This document shows positions 1 to 21,715 of a DNA stretch of 21,993 bases, piece by piece. Source of the stretch: a virus; IMG/VR virus record IMGVR_UViG_3300021961_000716, positions 1 through 21,993 of that record; one strand, written 5' to 3'. The position numbers and the translations under genes were made by a program. Numbering within the stretch: the first letter of the stretch is position 1; every line of letters begins with the position of its first letter. The notes under the pieces are model-generated. The model was not told where the DNA came from. It did not search any database and saw nothing but the letters and a program-made list of their open reading frames with translations.

Positions 1-3000
1 ATATCAATATCTCCAGTTGAAGTGCTCAGTGTCTTACTACCACCAGCAAACTTCATTGTGCTGGTTAGTGTGCCAGTTGTAGCACCTTGCGTAATAATAA
101 TTGTAGCACTTGTGCCAGCAACAGCATTGGTTAAACTGTTAATGGTTAAACCACCGCCTGTTGTAACTTGGAATATAGTGCCTGTGCTTACATCTAAGTT
201 AGCAGCAATATCACCACTTAGTGTGCCTAAACTGACCACAGTCTCGTTAAATTTTGTTAATGAAACATTACTTGGCTGTATTGGATCAACGGGTGTAAGC
301 ATGTCGTAGAACACATTACCAGCAGCATTGCTAAACTGCCAACGATCAGTTGACTCATTCCACAACAAGTAAGTTGAAGTAGCACTTGCACCGCGGTATA
401 CAGCAAATCCAGCATTTACATCACTTGCACCACCATAGTTAAAGTTTATACCAGCGGAAGTTGTTGATAGCACATCACTGTCATCAACACTTAACGTAGT
501 TTGAGGTTCATCTGGGTAAGCACCCTTTAGATTTTTAAGTGTTATTGTATGCGCAGTTATTGTGCTAACATTACCAATATCAATATTGCCTTGGTAATTA
601 CCAATAGCAGTGTTTGCACTATCACTGAAACTTGTTGTAACTGCTAAATTGCTTGCACTGCCAATAAAGATATTGCCTTCATTCAAGTTAGGTGTAGCGT
701 TTGTTCTGCCTGCACCAGCAACATTAATTGTGTTGCTGTTAGTTACAGTTGCTATCTTTTGAACAAACTGATCTTCACCAGATGGCTGTGTTTCTGTGAA
801 TGTGCCTGAGCCATCCACATACAGTTGAGCACCTACGGTAAAACCATGTGAAGTAAAGTTCATTTTACCACTGATAACAACTTCACCTGTTTCATTAGGT
901 GCAATGCTGTTTTTAACAACACCAAAGCCTGGCATTAGACTTGCATTGCCGCTGTCTGCTAACACAGCATCTGGTGTATCACCATGGTTATTACCATTTA
1001 GTGCAACAATGTCACCTTTGTTTAATGTGCCACCTGATGCGTTCCATATTACTGCTTGAATAGCACCATTAATATCGCCTTCAAATTGTGTAGTAGCAAT
1101 TATGTAATCGCCTTGAATATTAGCAGTTGTGGTTATATTACTGTCTGAACTAATAACAACATTTGTGTTTGGCAAATAAGTTTGTATTGCTGTATTTGCT
1201 CTATCAGTTGTATAGTAAAGGTTAGTGCCTTCTGCTAAGTCTGAAGTTGTTTTAGTAGTAAGCCAAGCATCACTATTTGTGTTGCCTCTATCAGTTGTCC
1301 AATAAAGATTAGTGCCTTCAGTGAGATCTGATGTTGTTTTAGTTGTTAGCCAAGCATCGCTTGCAGTGTTTGCTCTATCAGTTGTGAAGTATAAGTTATC
1401 ACCTTCATCTATATCAGTTGTGGTTAAACTTTCACTAATAACTCCATTAGCAAAATTGATATTGCCACTACCACTAATATAAGATTCAACTAGTGCATTA
1501 CTATAATAAAGATTAGTTGATCCTTCAGTGATTTCATCTGTGGTTAATGTAACAACACCTGTTTGTCCATTTACGCTGTCGACATTAGCAGTTGTGCTTG
1601 TTAAGTAAGCATCCATTGCGCTGTTAGCACGATCAGTTGTGAAGTATAAGTTACCGTTTTCAGCAATATCGCCAGTGTCTAATACCACAACACCTGTTTG
1701 ACCATTTACACTTTCAACAGCCTGCTCACCAATAACAATAGTGTTGCTGCCGTCTGACACTTCCCAACGATCCAGTGTTTCATTCCATATGATATAACTG
1801 TTAGTTAATGCACCACCAGAACGATCAACATATATAAATGCATCGCGTGGTGTAGCATTACCATAGTTAAGAGTAATACTGTTATCTAATACCTGCAGGT
1901 CTTGTGTATTAACATAATTAATATTGCCGCTAACTTCTAAGTTGCCACCAACTGTTAAATCATTACTGCCAATATAAGCAATAACATCTGCGTTGGTTAA
2001 CAACGTTGGTAAATTACTTAAACTTGTATAGTCGACACCTAAACCATCAACAAAAGTCTTTGTTACACGATTGTCAATGTCAGTGTTTGCTCTGCTTGTT
2101 GTATAATATAAATTAGAGCCTTCTGTTAAATCAGTTGTGGTATAATTTAGTAGTGTATTAGTTAATGCACTACCATCACCTAATAGATATGCAGCACTGA
2201 TATTGCCAGTTGCAGTAATATTGCCTGAACTAAAACTAACACCAGTAACATCATCTTCTTTGAGTTCAAGCGTGTTACTAGTTTCGGCTAATTCAAGACT
2301 ATACTTTTTAGCAGTGTGGCTTGGAGTAATATCATACTCAAGAAGCGGGCACGGAAATGGGATTGGATTTGTTGTAACTAATCCTCTACCCACCCAACTT
2401 GTTCCTGTTACTGTAGCCCAAGTTAGCGGAGTAGTTAATCCACTGTCCTCAAATACACCATAATATACTTGGTTAGCGAAAGTTCTTCCTCTCTTTAGAT
2501 ATCCAATATTACTATTATTGGTCCAAGTAACTAAGTCTTGTATAAAACTAAAACCTGTTCCAACAAAATAAACTGGTGTTGCATCATCAAGAGGTTGATT
2601 ACCTAAATAATTTATACCAATAACAACCGTATCAGCATCTTCTGTGATCTGACCATATGTGCCACTTGTAACATATTGCCAACCCCAATCAGGTAGTCTT
2701 GCTTTTGATCCTACACGGCGGTCTAATTCAATAACCATATCACCAACAACAGGTTGAGCATTACCGCCATTATGACCGCCATTAGTAACAGTTAAACGGC
2801 TACCACTGTCAGCACTCACATTAGCACTGTTCATTTCTACCCAAGTGCGTTTGGTTTCGCTACTCCAGTTACCACGTGTGCCTTTACCAGCACCAAAACC
2901 CGTCTGATTTTCAGCAACAGGACCTATAATAACAGGTCTGCGTGTTTCACCTGAAGGTTTATTAGAACCTAAATATAATCCACCATCTTCATAAGTTAAG

Positions 3001-6000
3001 AAAACATCGCGAAGTGATTTATTAGCCGCATTTACAGTATCAGGTCGGCTATTAGCAACAAAAGACATATTTGTTTTGCCACCGTAAGCACCATCAGTCC
3101 AATCTTCACCTGCGGATACTGATATATAAGCACTTGGTATTCCTTCACCACCAGGTAAAGAACCACCACCATAACTGGTCCAACCAATCTTACCTAATTC
3201 TTGATTGTCTCTTGCATACCAACCTGTGCTTGGTTCATTTAGATTACCATTATAACTTCTAAATAATAATTCTGCAGCACCATAATCTAGACTGTTTTCT
3301 TGGCGTGTTAAATCAGTAAAATTACCAAGTTGTAGTCTTGGAATGAATGAATTTTGGCTACCTTGTGAGGATGAACCTATTAACGCATAGTCACTAGCAT
3401 ATGGTGTAATACCATCATAGCCTAGGCTAATACCAAAACCAGATTGACCATTATCAAACATTTGGCTTGTTGTTAGTGTATTAGCACCTACAACCAATCC
3501 ATCTTTCATTCCAAAGTAAGTTTTATCACTGCTTACTAAACTAACTTTACCTTGTGTATAATGACCATATGTTCTAAAGTTAGATTCGCTCATGTTGAGA
3601 CTATAATCACTGCTACTGCCCGCAGTGTATGTGAAGTCACCTGCTACAGGACCACTTATTGGATAAGCATACACATTAGTTGAAAGCATCTTAGCAGGAC
3701 CAACACTTGCAGGACTACGGGCTCCACCATACACATCATACTCACTTAATACACCAACTAAGAATCCAGTTTCAGTGTCACGCATTGTTTGCATGAAGAA
3801 ACTGTTGTTACCAAATATATTAGTAGCAGCCAATACACTGGTAAATTCAAAATCGCTGGTTGCTGGATTATTCATTGTAACAGTTAAATTACCTGTATCA
3901 ATTGAAGTAATATATGTTCCTGCAGGGAATGGAGTTTGTGTTCCTTCTGTGCCGCCATCACCTAATGTTAAATTGTTGTAGATGCCACTTAATGGTCCTG
4001 TAGTATACATTGGCGACATACCAGTAACAATGTTATTAATCAATGTAGAAATATTGCCAGTGCCAACAATTGGTTTAGTTCGTAATGGGAAAGTAGTTGC
4101 GTTAGCAGTTTCGCGGTATGTTTCCATACCTGTTAACTGTATTGTTGCACTACCACTTACAACATTACCTGTAAAACAATATGCGTTTATATCAGTAGCA
4201 CCTGAGTATGTAATAAGTCTTGTAGAAGTAAGTTGGTTAAAATTACTTGAAGGTTGTGATTTTGTATAACCATAACCGCCTGTCATGTTAAGCACATCAG
4301 TCAATACTTGATTTGCGCCTAATGCTTCAGTAAATGTAAAGCCACCAACACCATCACCAAGTGATATTTTGTTTAGACTTTCTGCCTGTATGCTGTTAAC
4401 ATTAGCAAGTGCATTAGTGAGACTGATTACGCCACTGTTAACAAGAATATTTTCACTGCCTACAACATAGTTGTCAATTGCAGTGTTTGCTCTTGCAGTT
4501 GTAAACCAAACATTACCTGTGCCTTCTGGTAGATCATCAGATGTATAAGAACTGCTACCAGCAACAGCAATATTAGCACCACCAAAACTTAGCACACCAT
4601 TTGCGGCTGAGATAGCAGTGTCATCTAAGTAAATTGAAGTGCCACTTAGATATAAATCTTTCCAACGATTAGAAGGATTGCCTAATGTATATACACTATT
4701 TGCACTAGGCAGTATGTTTCCGCCTACATTTAGATCATTAGCACCTAAGTAAGTGGTAATAGCAGTATTTGCTCTTGCAGTTGTGAAGTATAAATTACCA
4801 TTTTCTGCAATATCACCTGTGTCTAATACAACAATACCTGTTTGACCATTAACACTTTCTACAGCTTGCTCACCAATAACTATTGTGTTACTACCATCTG
4901 ACACTTCCCAACGGTCAAGTGTTTCATTCCATTTGATATAACTGTTAGTTAATGCACCGCCAGAACGATCAACATATATAAATGCATCTCTAGGTGTAGC
5001 ATTACCATAATTTAATGTAATTTGATTGTCTAATACTTGTAAGTCTGTGGTATTAACATAGTTAATGTTACCAAGAACTTCTAAATTGCCGCCTACTGTA
5101 AGCGGAACAGTTGCAATATACGCAACAACATCGCTGTTGCTTACACCACTATCAGATGCCCAACTTACAATACCATTAGCATCTGTTTTTAATATTTGAT
5201 TAGCAGTGCCTCTGACATTAGGTAAAACAAAATTTTGATTAGCAGACACATTACCAATACTAATAGTTCCATGTGCATCTATACTTAAAACCTCATATGT
5301 GCCTCCTGATACAGCAAACGGATCTCCACCGCCAAATCTTATTAATTTAAATTTAGCGCCGTCTGCACTCTGGAATGATGGTTTCAAATCCATTATAATA
5401 TTACCATCATCCCTAATACCAAAATGTATACCGCTAGGATCATCATTTGCAATTGGTGCACTTGCAAATACTATATTACTAAGTTGATCACCATCTGTGT
5501 CCATTGCAATTCTTACACCAGAATGACTGTATATGTGCAATGGTTTGGTATCTTCTAGTTTAAAAATTTGTGGTGAATCAGTGCTATCTGTAAAAATAAT
5601 TGTGCCTAGACTTGTAATATTACCAGATGAAATAATATTACCTGTAACAGAATGATCAGTATTTAAATAATTAGATATGGCAGTATTTGCTCTTGCAGTT
5701 GTGTAGTAAAGATTTATATTACCTTCTGCTAAATTATCTGTTGTAAAATCTGCAAGTATGTTGTATGAATTCATGCGCACAACACTTGTGTAATATGTTG
5801 TGCCATCGGATATAATATTAAATATAGTCTCTTGGTTAATACCAGTATCTATATCAGTAGCATTGGCAACAAAATCCCATGCTGTCCAATTGGAAGTATA
5901 TGTTGTTGTATCTAATATTTTACCACCAAAATTATCTTGTTTGGCAATTATAGTAAAAGTTTCGCCGGCATCAATATTAGAAATAGTAATACCAGTAATA

Positions 6001-6566
6001 TTACCTGTTAGTGTAATTCTTTGTGTTTTACCATCATTAACATCTAAGGATATATTGCCAGTAACATTACCAGCATCATAATAAGTTTCTAAGTTTAATG
6101 CTGTGGTATCTAATCCAATAATACCTGTATTAGTATCAAATGTAATTGGACTTGTATTACTGAATAATGTTTTTATTTCATTAGGTGTTACTCTAGTATA
6201 CTCAATGACACCTGTTGTAGAATTATATGCAATATTTCCTACTCCAGTGCCTGCATTAATAGCACTAAAATGTGCTCTTACTTCACTTGCACTTGGTCCA
6301 GTGTATGTAAATACACCAGTTATATTACTGTAAGTTAAACTACCATCGCCGCCTGCATCAACAACACTAATACTTTCTCTAACTTGTTCTACTGATATTT
6401 GACCTTCTGTTACAACAACATTAAAAGGAGTATTAGTAACACTTACATTTGTTTGGGTTGTGGTAATATTAGCAACTAAAACACCATCTTCACTGACAGT
6501 GATGTTGCTGGGAGTAGAAGTAACTGCAATGTTACTTAATGTGCTTGAAACTGTTACATTAGCCAT
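1..6566 (-). CDS. Giant modular tail-fibre/virion structural protein, partial (C-terminus off the left edge)
   Basis: Starts at ATG 6566 behind a good AAGGAG site that overlaps the stop of the upstream 166-aa gene. The frame stays open for 2188 codons to the window edge. The N-terminus has Val/Thr/Asn-rich beta repeats (NITVSE, FNVVVTE), then short TGV-centred repeats (TGVFTYTGPSASEVRAHFSA at about residues 85-105). Nine copies of a motif like EGxNLYYTTxRANTAIxxYL follow. Two near-identical modules contain RDAFIYVDRSGG and WNETLDRWEVSDGSN, and a diverged third copy lies near residues 2022-2085. A separate domain near residues 1800-1960 has the pattern SGGTLNKGDIVALNG...MPGFGV. I recognise the repeat style from very large structural proteins of marine phages. 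The likely role is a virion fibre or appendage for host contact, inferred from repeats and position at the end of the tail operon. No catalytic motif was seen, and any C-terminal chaperone or receptor-binding tip lies outside the window. Confidence 0.88.
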   Translation of the reverse strand, partial: MANVTVSSTLSNIAVTSTPSNITVSEDGVLVANITTTQTNVSVTNTPFNVVVTEGQISVEQVRESISVVDAGGDGSLTYSNITGVFTYTGPSASEVRAHFSAINAGTGVGNIAYNSTTGVIEYTRVTPNEIKTLFSNTSPITFDTNTGIIGLDTTALNLETYYDAGNVTGNISLDVNDGKTQRITLTGNITGITISNIDAGETFTIIAKQDNFGGKILDTTTYTSNWTAWDFVANATDIDTGINQETIFNIISDGTTYYTSVVRMNSYNILADFTTDNLAEGNINLYYTTARANTAISNYLNTDHSVTGNIISSGNITSLGTIIFTDSTDSPQIFKLEDTKPLHIYSHSGVRIAMDTDGDQLSNIVFASAPIANDDPSGIHFGIRDDGNIIMDLKPSFQSADGAKFKLIRFGGGDPFAVSGGTYEVLSIDAHGTISIGNVSANQNFVLPNVRGTANQILKTDANGIVSWASDSGVSNSDVVAYIATVPLTVGGNLEVLGNINYVNTTDLQVLDNQITLNYGNATPRDAFIYVDRSGGALTNSYIKWNETLDRWEVSDGSNTIVIGEQAVESVNGQTGIVVLDTGDIAENGNLYFTTARANTAITTYLGANDLNVGGNILPSANSVYTLGNPSNRWKDLYLSGTSIYLDDTAISAANGVLSFGGANIAVAGSSSYTSDDLPEGTGNVWFTTARANTAIDNYVVGSENILVNSGVISLTNALANVNSIQAESLNKISLGDGVGGFTFTEALGANQVLTDVLNMTGGYGYTKSQPSSNFNQLTSTRLITYSGATDINAYCFTGNVVSGSATIQLTGMETYRETANATTFPLRTKPIVGTGNISTLINNIVTGMSPMYTTGPLSGIYNNLTLGDGGTEGTQTPFPAGTYITSIDTGNLTVTMNNPATSDFEFTSVLAATNIFGNNSFFMQTMRDTETGFLVGVLSEYDVYGGARSPASVGPAKMLSTNVYAYPISGPVAGDFTYTAGSSSDYSLNMSESNFRTYGHYTQGKVSLVSSDKTYFGMKDGLVVGANTLTTSQMFDNGQSGFGISLGYDGITPYASDYALIGSSSQGSQNSFIPRLQLGNFTDLTRQENSLDYGAAELLFRSYNGNLNEPSTGWYARDNQELGKIGWTSYGGGSLPGGEGIPSAYISVSAGEDWTDGAYGGKTNMSFVANSRPDTVNAANKSLRDVFLTYEDGGLYLGSNKPSGETRRPVIIGPVAENQTGFGAGKGTRGNWSSETKRTWVEMNSANVSADSGSRLTVTNGGHNGGNAQPVVGDMVIELDRRVGSKARLPDWGWQYVTSGTYGQITEDADTVVIGINYLGNQPLDDATPVYFVGTGFSFIQDLVTWTNNSNIGYLKRGRTFANQVYYGVFEDSGLTTPLTWATVTGTSWVGRGLVTTNPIPFPCPLLEYDITPSHTAKKYSLELAETSNTLELKEDDVTGVSFSSGNITATGNISAAYLLGDGSALTNTLLNYTTTDLTEGSNLYYTTSRANTDIDNRVTKTFVDGLGVDYTSLSNLPTLLTNADVIAYIGSNDLTVGGNLEVSGNINYVNTQDLQVLDNSITLNYGNATPRDAFIYVDRSGGALTNSYIIWNETLDRWEVSDGSNTIVIGEQAVESVNGQTGVVVLDTGDIAENGNLYFTTDRANSAMDAYLTSTTANVDSVNGQTGVVTLTTDEITEGSTNLYYSNALVESYISGSGNINFANGVISESLTTTDIDEGDNLYFTTDRANTASDAWLTTKTTSDLTEGTNLYWTTDRGNTNSDAWLTTKTTSDLAEGTNLYYTTDRANTAIQTYLPNTNVVISSDSNITTTANIQGDYIIATTQFEGDINGAIQAVIWNASGGTLNKGDIVALNGNNHGDTPDAVLADSGNASLMPGFGVVKNSIAPNETGEVVISGKMNFTSHGFTVGAQLYVDGSGTFTETQPSGEDQFVQKIATVTNSNTINVAGAGRTNATPNLNEGNIFIGSASNLAVTTSFSDSANTAIGNYQGNIDIGNVSTITAHTITLKNLKGAYPDEPQTTLSVDDSDVLSTTSAGINFNYGGASDVNAGFAVYRGASATSTYLLWNESTDRWQFSNAAGNVFYDMLTPVDPIQPSNVSLTKFNETVVSLGTLSGDIAANLDVSTGTIFQVTTGGGLTINSLTNAVAGTSATIIITQGATTGTLTSTMKFAGGSKTLSTSTGDID
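309..500 (-). repeat. Diverged third copy of the fibre module
   Basis: Encodes DSDVLSTTSAGINFNYGGAS followed by AVYRGASATSTYLLWNESTDRWQFSN. This lines up with ITLNYGNA, IYVDRSGG and WNETLDRWEVSDGSN of copies A and B. The spacing is similar but the identity is much lower, so it is an older paralogous module. It lies close to the left edge. Confidence 0.7.
1602..2000 (-). repeat. Duplicated fibre module, copy A
   Basis: Encodes a segment from LTNADVIAYIGSNDLTVGGN through INYVN, ITLNYGNATPRDAFIYVDRS, WNETLDRWEVSDGSN and ESVNGQTGVVVLDTGDIAEN to an LYFTTDRAN motif. It matches copy B at 4746-5140 almost residue for residue, for example S/L before GNINYVN, I/K before WNETLDRW and V/I after GQTG. 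Most DNA differences fall at third codon positions. In protein order it is the second copy (about residues 1523-1655). Confidence 0.9.
4746..5140 (-). repeat. Duplicated fibre module, copy B
   Basis: The N-terminal partner of the module at 1602-2000 (about residues 476-607 of the giant protein). It encodes SDVVAYIATVPLTVGGN, then INYVN, ITLNYGNATPRDAFIYVDRS, WNETLDRWEVSDGSN and LYFTTARANTAITTYL. About 3.1 kb of mostly unrelated coding sequence separates the two copies, so this is a dispersed intragenic duplication and not a tandem one. Confidence 0.9.
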
Positions 6567-7124: not shown

Positions 7125-7155
7125 CGTATTATGTATTTATGCTATTTTTAAATTT

Positions 7156-19324: not shown

Positions 19325-20887
19325 TTACAGACTGTTCTCTGTATAGGAATTATTTACTAATGCCTTTATTCTAGCTTCCAATGCCATATGCAATTCATGT
19401 TCTAAACTTTCTTCTTCCATGGGCACGCCTTCAAAGCGAGCTTTATATGCATCATAAAGAGCCATTAGGTTGGTTAATTCTGCGATTTCTTCTTCTAAAC
19501 CTTTTTTGTTATACTGTCTATTGTAGGAAATAGTTAAGTCTGTGGGGATTGGTTTGTTCTGCCAATCATACCACATTTCCCACAATTGGAATTCTGCGTT
19601 TTCTAAACTGGTTGCTTTTTTGCGTATAAACGCTTCCAGTTTGCTGTCATATTGCTCAATTTGCACACCACTGCGACTAGCACGAATAAGTTCATCTGAA
19701 CGCACCATTGCTACTTGATTCATCTTCTCAATCTTTTGATCAATAAGTTCGCGTAGTTGCTGTAAGCTATCAAGTGGAGGAGCAACAAACTCATACACAT
19801 GATTTGTTTGCCCGTTTAGGCTACTGGCTACACGTATTACTGTGCCTGGTTCTGCGCCTATAGCACCATTATTCAGCTGAGCTGTTTGCTCGTCTACGAT
19901 ATTTACTGGGTGGGAGCCGTAACTAACGGCACTGTATATTTCCCCCATGTCACCGTAGACACTACGCTGAATCTGTGCAATATCAAATATTGGAGTATGT
20001 CCAATTCCATTGTATATTTTGGAGCTTTGATACACGGGTCTAACTGGTATGTAACCTAATTCATTAGGTTGACTAATTCTGTAATAATTCAATTCGTCTT
20101 CTGAATACATTATGCCACCATCTGGTAACACAACATCTACTTCATCATCTGTAATTACAAACACTGTATCTATAGTTTCTTTTGTAATATAATGGTAAAT
20201 GTCAACACCTGGATTGGTGCTAACACGCAATACGATTCTGTTTAATACTAATTCGCCACTAGTGGTATATGAATACTCCCAGTTTGTTACGTCTTGTGGC
20301 TTATACATTCTTAATAATGCATAGTTCTTTTCTGCGGGCTTAATACAACTTACCCATACTACACCACATACTGTGCTGAACGTATCTACTTGGCTCCAGA
20401 ATTCGTTCAAGCTGTTTCCCTCACCATCACAATCTTGTGAGAACGCTAACACATCTGGTGTGTCTGGCATTTCTCTATGTGGAGGATTGCGGAATAATAT
20501 ACTATTGTATTCACTTACATAAAGTCTTGTGTAAGGAAATACAGGAACATTGCGTAGTTTTTCTTCATAGAAACTGCTTAAGTAGCTGCTACCACTTTCA
20601 CTTTCTGTTTTACTACCAACACGTTCCACCATTGTGCTATAACTGCCAGTTTGCACACCGTTAGCATCTACATCATAGGTGGTGATAACTTCACTTGGTG
20701 TTGATTGGTCAATGTCATAGCATTTGAGATACTTACCGCGGCGATATTCAACGCCACCGTAGTATGATTTGAGGGCGAGGTTCCAGTCCTCGTAATATCT
20801 TTGATATAGTTCATGACTTCCTGTGAGGAAATCGTAATAAGAGAGTTTCTTAGCCAAGATATAACTCCATATGTTGTCGACAAACAT
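19325..20887 (-). CDS. Portal protein (520 aa)
   Basis: Forms the DNA-packaging and ejection ring at the capsid vertex. An N-terminal helical YYEDWNLALKSYYGGVEYRR is followed by YLKCYDID, LRNVPVFPYTRLYVSEYNSI and LFRNPP. Then come CGVVWVSCIKPA, LRMYKPQDVTNWEYS and GYIPVRPVYQSS, and a helical stem region from IFDIAQIQRSVYGDMGEIYS to LRELIDQKIEKMNQVAMVRS. The C-terminus is helical and charged. Length and this layout, including the 'KPQDVTNWEY' wing segment, resemble the DUF4055-type portal group. The scaffold and capsid genes downstream agree. ATG 20887 has no ribosome-binding site. An in-frame TTG at 20857 with GGAG 7 nt upstream (20865-20868) would give 510 aa and may be the true start. No terminase lies next to it on the right. 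Confidence 0.87.
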   Translation of the reverse strand: MFVDNIWSYILAKKLSYYDFLTGSHELYQRYYEDWNLALKSYYGGVEYRRGKYLKCYDIDQSTPSEVITTYDVDANGVQTGSYSTMVERVGSKTESESGSSYLSSFYEEKLRNVPVFPYTRLYVSEYNSILFRNPPHREMPDTPDVLAFSQDCDGEGNSLNEFWSQVDTFSTVCGVVWVSCIKPAEKNYALLRMYKPQDVTNWEYSYTTSGELVLNRIVLRVSTNPGVDIYHYITKETIDTVFVITDDEVDVVLPDGGIMYSEDELNYYRISQPNELGYIPVRPVYQSSKIYNGIGHTPIFDIAQIQRSVYGDMGEIYSAVSYGSHPVNIVDEQTAQLNNGAIGAEPGTVIRVASSLNGQTNHVYEFVAPPLDSLQQLRELIDQKIEKMNQVAMVRSDELIRASRSGVQIEQYDSKLEAFIRKKATSLENAEFQLWEMWYDWQNKPIPTDLTISYNRQYNKKGLEEEIAELTNLMALYDAYKARFEGVPMEEESLEHELHMALEARIKALVNNSYTENSL

Positions 20888-20893
20888 TATTTA

Positions 20894-20923
20894 TCTATAT
20901 TTAAAAAAATGCATACAAATCAA
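20894..20923 (-). promoter_or_regulatory. Possible leftward promoter for the late operon
   Basis: On the minus strand TTGATT (20918-20923) and TATAGA (20894-20899) are separated by 18 nt. Transcription would start near 20888, at the first ATG of the portal frame, so the message would be leaderless unless the TTG at 20857 is used. The surroundings are very AT-rich, so a chance match is possible. Operons of this kind also often use a phage-encoded activator. Confidence 0.35.
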
Positions 20924-20974
20924 GCACTTATACACTGTGTTTGTAAGTTGTTGATTTATATAGAGTTTTTGGGT

Positions 20975-21002
20975 TTGACATTTACTAAAGATTTGCTATT
21001 AT
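20975..21002 (+). promoter_or_regulatory. Sigma70-like promoter of the rightward cassette
   Basis: TTGACA (20975-20980), a 16-nt spacer and TATTAT (20997-21002), with a TG of the extended -10 type at 20994-20995. Start of transcription is expected near 21009, giving a leader of about 35 nt to ATG 21043. It is the best consensus promoter seen in the window. It points away from the late operon and should work with host RNA polymerase without phage factors. Confidence 0.75.
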
Positions 21003-21042
21003 ATACATGTAAGTTAAACAAACGCCTTAGGAGGCAAACAAC

Positions 21043-21222
21043 ATGGGTATTATTGGTGGTCTTGGCACGTTAGCAATTCTGTATGGTGTAATTGGTTTGT
21101 TTATTGCAGTGTTTTATATTGCAATCATCTATACACACATTGTTGAAAACTATAATTTTTATAAATGGGTTGCACTGATTATTCCATTTATTCCACTTGC
21201 AATTGGCTTGGCTAATTCTTAA
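21043..21222 (+). CDS. Small two-helix membrane protein (59 aa)
   Basis: ATG 21043 lies 8 nt after a perfect AGGAGG (21029-21034). The protein has two hydrophobic stretches: residues about 2-30 (IIGGLGTLAILYGVIGLFIA and on) and about 42-57 (WVALIIPFIPLAIGLA). A short polar turn containing THIVENYNFYK joins them. It ends in a TAA that is followed at once by the next gene's AGGAGG. Size and topology fit a holin, an antiholin or a superinfection-exclusion protein, but no endolysin is beside it and no family is recognised. It is expressed from its own promoter, opposite to the virion genes. Note that GCCT-TAGG-AGGC (21024-21035) could fold over the ribosome-binding site. Confidence 0.8.
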   Translation: MGIIGGLGTLAILYGVIGLFIAVFYIAIIYTHIVENYNFYKWVALIIPFIPLAIGLANS

Positions 21223-21236
21223 TAGGAGGCACTGTA

Positions 21237-21677
21237 ATGACCTGGGATGACTACATCTTTATTCTTAAATTGCGTCAAATTCCAACTGAAGCAATTGAAT
21301 CGTGTAAAACATTTGTTCTAGCAGAAATGCAAGAGTGGAATATGCTTAATAACTTCGGACTGAGGACTTGCAGTGCAACACATGATTTAGGTTATAGCGA
21401 ACTGGGCAGTATCACCAGTAAAGAACAAAGCATACAAGAAATTATAGAACAAATTGGTAATAGTATTCTTGAAATTGATAGTGCTGGCAGAGATATCAGC
21501 AAACGTCTTTATAAAGAGTTAGTTAAAAAACCGCATAAAGGTCTAGAGAGGCGTGTGCTTAAAAGTTTCTATTTGTTTCATCACGATCTAAATGAAGAAC
21601 CTACTAAAGAAAATATGTGGGGCAATCGGTATATTTGGCAGTTAGATACTATGTATAAGCTGGGTGCTTTTAAGTAA
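21237..21677 (+). CDS. Unknown cytoplasmic protein (146 aa)
   Basis: Second gene of the rightward cassette, with AGGAGG 7 nt before ATG 21237 and a terminator just after its stop. The protein is soluble and mostly helical: MTWDDYIFILKLRQIPTEAI, ESCKTFVLAEMQEWNMLNNF, EQSIQEIIEQIGNSILEIDS, ISKRLYKELVKKP and LERRVLKSFYLFHHDLNEEP, ending IWQLDTMYKLGAF. Two cysteines (residues about 23 and 45) and several tryptophans are present, with no catalytic or DNA-binding motif that I recognise. Co-expression with the small membrane protein suggests they act together, possibly in altering the host. That is a guess from gene order. Confidence 0.8.
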   Translation: MTWDDYIFILKLRQIPTEAIESCKTFVLAEMQEWNMLNNFGLRTCSATHDLGYSELGSITSKEQSIQEIIEQIGNSILEIDSAGRDISKRLYKELVKKPHKGLERRVLKSFYLFHHDLNEEPTKENMWGNRYIWQLDTMYKLGAFK

Positions 21678-21680
21678 TAA

Positions 21681-21715
21681 AAAAGCCCCTCTAGGCTTCA
21701 ATTAGAGGGGCTTTT
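21681..21715. terminator. Bidirectional intrinsic terminator
   Basis: AAAAGCCCCTCTA and TAGAGGGGCTTTT form a perfect 13-bp stem around a 9-nt loop. The A-run on one side and T-run on the other make it work both ways. It ends the rightward cassette 3 nt after the 146-aa stop and would also stop leftward transcripts coming from the genes at 21760 onward. Confidence 0.93.

Follow-up and report, generated by a model that had tools for sequence, protein, structure and literature searches.

Gene content and boundaries of the portal-adjacent locus

The window analysed here is the complete stretch of a linear IMG/VR virus record of 21,993 bases, and all coordinates refer to this whole window. It derives from a group of uncultured, siphovirus-like tailed phages. 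Next to the portal gene, two genes are oriented rightward, opposite to every other assigned gene of the window, i.e. those for the portal, a head protein, the tape measure and a fibre-like protein. The locus comprises the following features:

19325-20857, minus strand: portal gene (PHROG_145 portal, E=7e-35); the TTG start at 20857, with a GGAG site upstream, was judged from homologues to be more likely than ATG at 20887
20888-20895, minus strand: GATAAATA, putative late-type promoter element of the portal operon, found in 58/66 distinct relatives
20907-21667, plus strand: predicted accessory insert with promoter and two genes, delimited by blastn of the window slot against the empty site L041
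20975-21002, plus strand: predicted sigma70-type promoter TTGACA-16-TATTAT (11/12 consensus match)
21029-21034, plus strand: Shine-Dalgarno sequence AGGAGG of gene 1
21043-21222, plus strand: gene 1, predicted 59-aa two-helix membrane protein (hydropathy, codon pattern, AF2 helices, homologue in L040)
21224-21229, plus strand: Shine-Dalgarno sequence AGGAGG of gene 2
21237-21677, plus strand: gene 2, 146-aa soluble protein of no known family, with a homologue in the same slot of L001/L002/L003
21681-21715, no strand assigned: hairpin terminator, retained in the empty site L041
21760-21924, minus strand: core flank gene for a 54-aa basic protein, 83% identical in L041/L042

The promoter is the single match to TTGACA-N15-18-TATWAT in the window, where 0.10 matches would be expected by chance. 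The preliminary description had proposed a near-consensus promoter followed by two rightward genes with perfect AGGAGG sites, and both elements are borne out, the sites lying 7-8 nt before each gene. A leader hairpin around the first AGGAGG was no stronger than in shuffled sequences (z +0.28), and we therefore do not claim an RNA switch. In comparisons with their homologues, both genes show the highest divergence at codon position 3 and the lowest at position 2. This order of positions (3 > 1 > 2) means that both are real genes, and it indicates that they are under selection.

The 59-aa protein is strongly hydrophobic (GRAVY 1.51) and its AF2 model (pLDDT 75) contains helices at residues 3-35, 39-46 and 49-57. 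Hydropathy and predicted helices thus agree with the membrane protein of two helices suggested earlier, which by prediction is a short inner-membrane protein as found in the superinfection-exclusion class. It gave no significant match in PHROG, Pfam, NCBIfam, PADLOC or PDB, and no sequence similarity to known exclusion proteins was seen in the first four of these collections. A homologue with 47% identity, 61-64 aa in size, is encoded in L040, a contig with a gene content that by eye is T4-like. There the gene (4971-5165) lies within an operon of small genes under a TTGACT-17-TATAAT promoter, and it is followed by a gene for an exported signal-peptide protein of ~95 aa.

The 146-aa protein (pI 6.1) was described as unrecognised, and it remains so after searches of PHROG, Pfam, NCBIfam, PADLOC and PDB, none of which gave a match. 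Its AF2 model is mostly helical at low confidence (pLDDT 44) and was kept out of the fold search. Full-length homologues of 46-48% identity occur in one other phage, represented by three metagenome contigs (L001-L003), which is the only species besides the present phage found to carry the gene; rescanning viral sequences with a profile of these two members added no new species, and the profile found nothing in bacterial genomes. Neither cassette protein was matched by tblastn in 50,697 phage records. In L001 the homologue is preceded by a gene for an exported 128-aa signal-peptide protein, which was absent outside the L001 phage. Because the partners differ in L001 and L040, an obligate pairing of the 59-aa and 146-aa proteins is doubtful. 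Judged from these distributions, the cassette genes are exchanged between unlike phages. Envelope-directed partners recur among them: a predicted membrane protein here and exported proteins in L001 and L040.

The insert boundaries follow from comparison with L041 and L042, in which the 54-aa gene is kept, the portal gene follows 198 bp further and the cassette is absent. Homology to L041 ends at 20906 and restarts at 21668 (blastn), leaving 761 bp here versus 9 bp in L041. The presence/absence comparison with conserved flanking genes that had been suggested as a check therefore supports a genuine insert, but its bounds are ca. 20907-21667 instead of 20975-21715, and they exclude the hairpin. 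The arms of the hairpin (21681-21694 and 21702-21715) form 14 bp as plus-strand RNA, with folding energies of -22.2 kcal/mol (z -5.5) on the plus strand and -20.2 kcal/mol on the minus strand. The postulated bidirectional terminator is thus stable on both strands, but it has 14 bp and not 13, and only its leftward U-tract is long (GCTTTTTTATT), the rightward one being GCTTTTGAACT. L041 has the hairpin on its late strand, where the U-tract is likewise long; between the two sites the arms are distinguished by a compensatory C-G to U-A exchange (GCCCCTCTA/TAGAGGGGC here, GCCTCTCTA/TAGAGAGGC in L041). Since the hairpin lies inside the part common to L041, the terminator must have been part of the ancestral site, and its opposite face serves the cassette. 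A moron would be expected to bring a terminator of its own, which this insert does not. The closed unit proposed earlier thus retains its promoter, its opposed orientation and its presence or absence between conserved flanks, but not its terminator.

The locus had also been placed where a terminase often adjoins the portal. The neighbour on the far side is instead the leftward 54-aa gene, and TerL follows a few kb beyond it in relatives, where the far-side genes up to TerL are all leftward. In most of the long contigs that were read the core genes are otherwise co-oriented; contig G028 has a second opposed gene pair, away from the slot.

The slot and the late-type promoter in related phages

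Eighty portal relatives and an earlier set were combined to 66 distinct loci. Both flanks were present for 44 slots, which were near-empty in 13 cases (55-198 bp), intermediate in 19 (265-694 bp) and large in 12 (902-3450 bp). Their cargo varies. L001/L068 carry a signal-peptide protein and a relative of the 146-aa protein; L067 has four genes, including those for a signal-peptide and a membrane protein; L106 has a 199-aa gene with further genes; and L111 has about nine genes. A 177-aa family occupies the slots of L123, L127, L135 and L039, and a predicted terminator-ended transcript without a convincing gene those of L074, L084, L090, L095, L101, L121 and L128. The 77-80-aa membrane proteins of L067 and L034 are similar by eye. 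Sequence comparison thus identifies the slot as an interchangeable accessory site outside the core genome. By the same comparisons, some slots hold genes that are not truly accessory. Slot ORFs of L038 (327-846) and L139 (798-1230, both in slot coordinates) are homologues (32-49%) of one gene, which in G011, G028, G030 and G031 is located away from the slot, and some cargo is therefore relocated early-type DNA.

Opposed sigma70-type promoters matching at least 11 of the 12 consensus positions occur in 18/66 slots, as compared to ~0.2% of 1475 control windows, a ~100-fold enrichment; these controls are downstream structural genes, not intergenic DNA, and the claim of enrichment is carried by perfect 12/12 promoters, present in 10/66 slots and in 0/1475 control windows. 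One promoter match, in L077, falls where coding regions overlap and probably arose by chance.

On the portal side, GATAAATA is found within 100 nt 5' of the portal gene in 58 of the distinct loci versus 8/3596 same-strand control windows; the opposite strand gave none in the control comparison. In nearly all relatives it is on the portal strand, 30-67 nt before the portal start. In five long contigs the corresponding motif NATAAATA is mostly intergenic and invariably on the core strand, and it often lies 40-70 nt before a few genes, among them the portal gene, a terminase-side gene and a gene encoding an MSGR..DF..YIGG protein. For cyanophage S-PM2 the reported late promoter is NATAAATA, and for T4 it is TATAAATA (PMC2984593). 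The motif GATAAATA matches the S-PM2 late promoter, and we infer a separate late promoter for the portal operon. Similar to the T4 and S-PM2 promoters, the element is intergenic, on the same strand as the portal and 30-67 nt 5' of it; in its late-strand position upstream of late genes it would qualify as a T4-like late promoter. Unlike these, it occurs in siphovirus-like contigs. The window itself carries the T4-like motif at 20888-20895 and at 7134-7141, both on the minus strand, and further copies are found in relatives.

Expression and possible role of the cassette

The name moron-like accessory cassette is a fair one for this locus. The reading that we prefer, with a probability of about 0.62, is that of a horizontally exchanged moron-type cassette in a conserved slot, which would be transcribed early by the host RNA polymerase and act on the envelope or the host state. 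Its parts differ in strength. An accessory insert with its own promoter is very probably present, considering the empty site and the promoter match. Early or constitutive expression is likely from the promoter type, and an envelope-directed action of the products is somewhat favoured by the signal peptides in the L001 and L067 slots and the membrane proteins in those of L067 and L034.

According to this moron-type reading, the slot would separate two core units, a terminase-side unit ending at the hairpin and a portal/late unit starting at GATAAATA. As the slot lies outside both, opposed inserts could come and go with the virion genes unharmed; such a junction, where one operon has been terminated and the late operon starts from a promoter of its own, would explain the tolerance for inserts. 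Upon DNA entry, host RNA polymerase with a sigma70-type factor would read the cassette without phage factors, and in a prophage, if one exists, the cassette would be read from its own promoter too. Transcription would be independent of the late switch and end at the hairpin already in place. The smaller product, of 59 aa, would insert into the inner membrane; the 146-aa protein would be cytoplasmic and act with it or downstream of it. Together or separately, the products would most likely alter the envelope or the host state, either excluding competitors or serving host takeover.

Morons are characteristically antisense to the lytic genes and driven by a promoter of their own (PMC7067206), and the cassette has this arrangement. 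Similar to morons of the HK97/HK022 type (Cumby et al. 2012, as cited in PMC7067206), it has a predicted sigma70-type promoter, opposes the lytic genes and is present or absent with conserved synteny, and its products are by inference dispensable. Unlike these morons, the present insert does not bring its terminator, no prophage relative was found among the genomes scanned, and the phage group has T4-like late motifs and a slot that lies between a terminase-side unit and the portal; moreover, in relatives the same slot holds apparent small RNAs.

Small membrane products of this kind usually include proteins that exclude other phages, and small membrane superinfection-exclusion proteins include those of the T4 Imm and P22/lambda Sie types. 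The 59-aa protein resembles them as a predicted, very short two-helix inner-membrane protein made apart from the late programme, whereas no sequence similarity was found and a 146-aa soluble gene is predicted to be co-transcribed here. As the products belong to no recognisable family, exclusion of other phages would be a sensible but rather unlikely conjecture for the specific function.

A serious alternative, which we consider somewhat short of even odds, is a strictly lytic phage in which the gene pair is an early unit, read by host RNA polymerase and directed against a host process instead of being a device for exclusion. The portal profile found no relative, and no prophage, in 84,980 bacterial and archaeal genomes. 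Early lytic expression is therefore at least as likely as expression from a prophage, and the result leans toward lytic phages or unsampled hosts. The gene shared by the L038 and L139 slots sits in a non-structural region elsewhere in the group, and similar sigma70 promoters occur at other non-structural sites of the long contigs; both would suit such a host-takeover unit. However, the missing prophages may also reflect unsampled hosts or the pattern-based scan, and the species-specific presence and the swapping of partners fit accessory cargo better. Inspection of the contigs by eye gave no recognisable integrase.

An addiction pair of a small membrane toxin and a soluble antitoxin would account for a two-gene unit with its own promoter and a membrane protein of toxin-like size, and the L040 homologue scored below threshold against a type I toxin model (E 0.031, 14.7 bits; cut-off 60). 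Since each gene is found without the other in a relative, no toxin-antitoxin, NCBIfam or PADLOC family was matched and no antisense RNA was seen at the cassette, we regard this as improbable. Even less probable is a lysis unit in which the 59-aa protein would be a holin or spanin-like part with the 146-aa protein as its partner. The small two-helix membrane protein would suit such a role and weak Pfam holin matches were obtained (E 0.37 and 4.1), but these are far under the curated cut-offs, the promoter is of the sigma70 type and not late-type, and the relative of the 146-aa protein is partnered by an exported protein. The cassette is moreover missing from most relatives, and it thus shows neither the core presence nor the late expression of a holin unit. 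A core unit common to all relatives, which would have contradicted the moron-like layout, can be set aside on the same ground. The window stops only 278 bp past the hairpin, but the leftward 54-aa neighbour and the leftward genes up to TerL in relatives practically dismiss the idea that the cassette is a piece of a longer rightward early operon cut by the window end.

With respect to the moron-type reading, the exact empty site makes cargo collectable by position alone in this little-studied environmental phage group; so far this comprises two new protein families here and apparent small RNAs in relatives.

RNA-like cargo and further observations

In seven slots (L121, L124, L125, L128, L129, L103 and L152) an apparent RNA gene of 70-80 nt is located 75-85 nt from the portal start. 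The L121-type RNA has a strong opposed promoter, an invariant 5' CUUGUCCUAA-CUUG and an intrinsic terminator. In eight aligned copies the 5' stretch is invariant and the terminator stem varies compatibly. The promoter combined with TTGTCCTAA matched 21 viral contigs, about a dozen of which carry the conserved, portal-adjacent L121-type RNA; the matches in the remaining contigs look like chance. In L119, and by eye also in L083, L118 and L132, the L121-type element is on the core strand. The slots of L095, L090, L084, L098, L101 and L074 contain longer putative RNAs that end in a terminator and have a stem near the predicted start. Two of these are in tandem in L095, each with a TTGACA..TATAAT promoter, one being common to L084 and the other to L090. 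A search of ten sources against Rfam at gathering scores gave no family that reached the threshold.

We tentatively suggest that the slot is a dedicated 'divergent-promoter dock' conserved in this phage group, in which a strong opposed host-type promoter beside the portal late promoter serves interchangeable protein or RNA cargo. If this is true, one early task would be solved by proteins in some phages and by regulatory RNAs in others.

Two of the loci, L141 and L142, belong to G028, a contig of 34,475 bases with ends that overlap by ~200 nt (200/202 identical). Because of this overlap G028 is probably a complete genome of ~34.3 kb; reading its ORFs gave no obvious polymerase, helicase or integrase gene. 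At the other end of the window, an open-ended ORF on the minus strand (3-6566, at least 2188 aa) contains many repeated TTDLxEGxNLYYTTxRAN-like blocks and probably encodes a tail-fibre protein. Its counterparts in relatives are 1586-2674 aa long.
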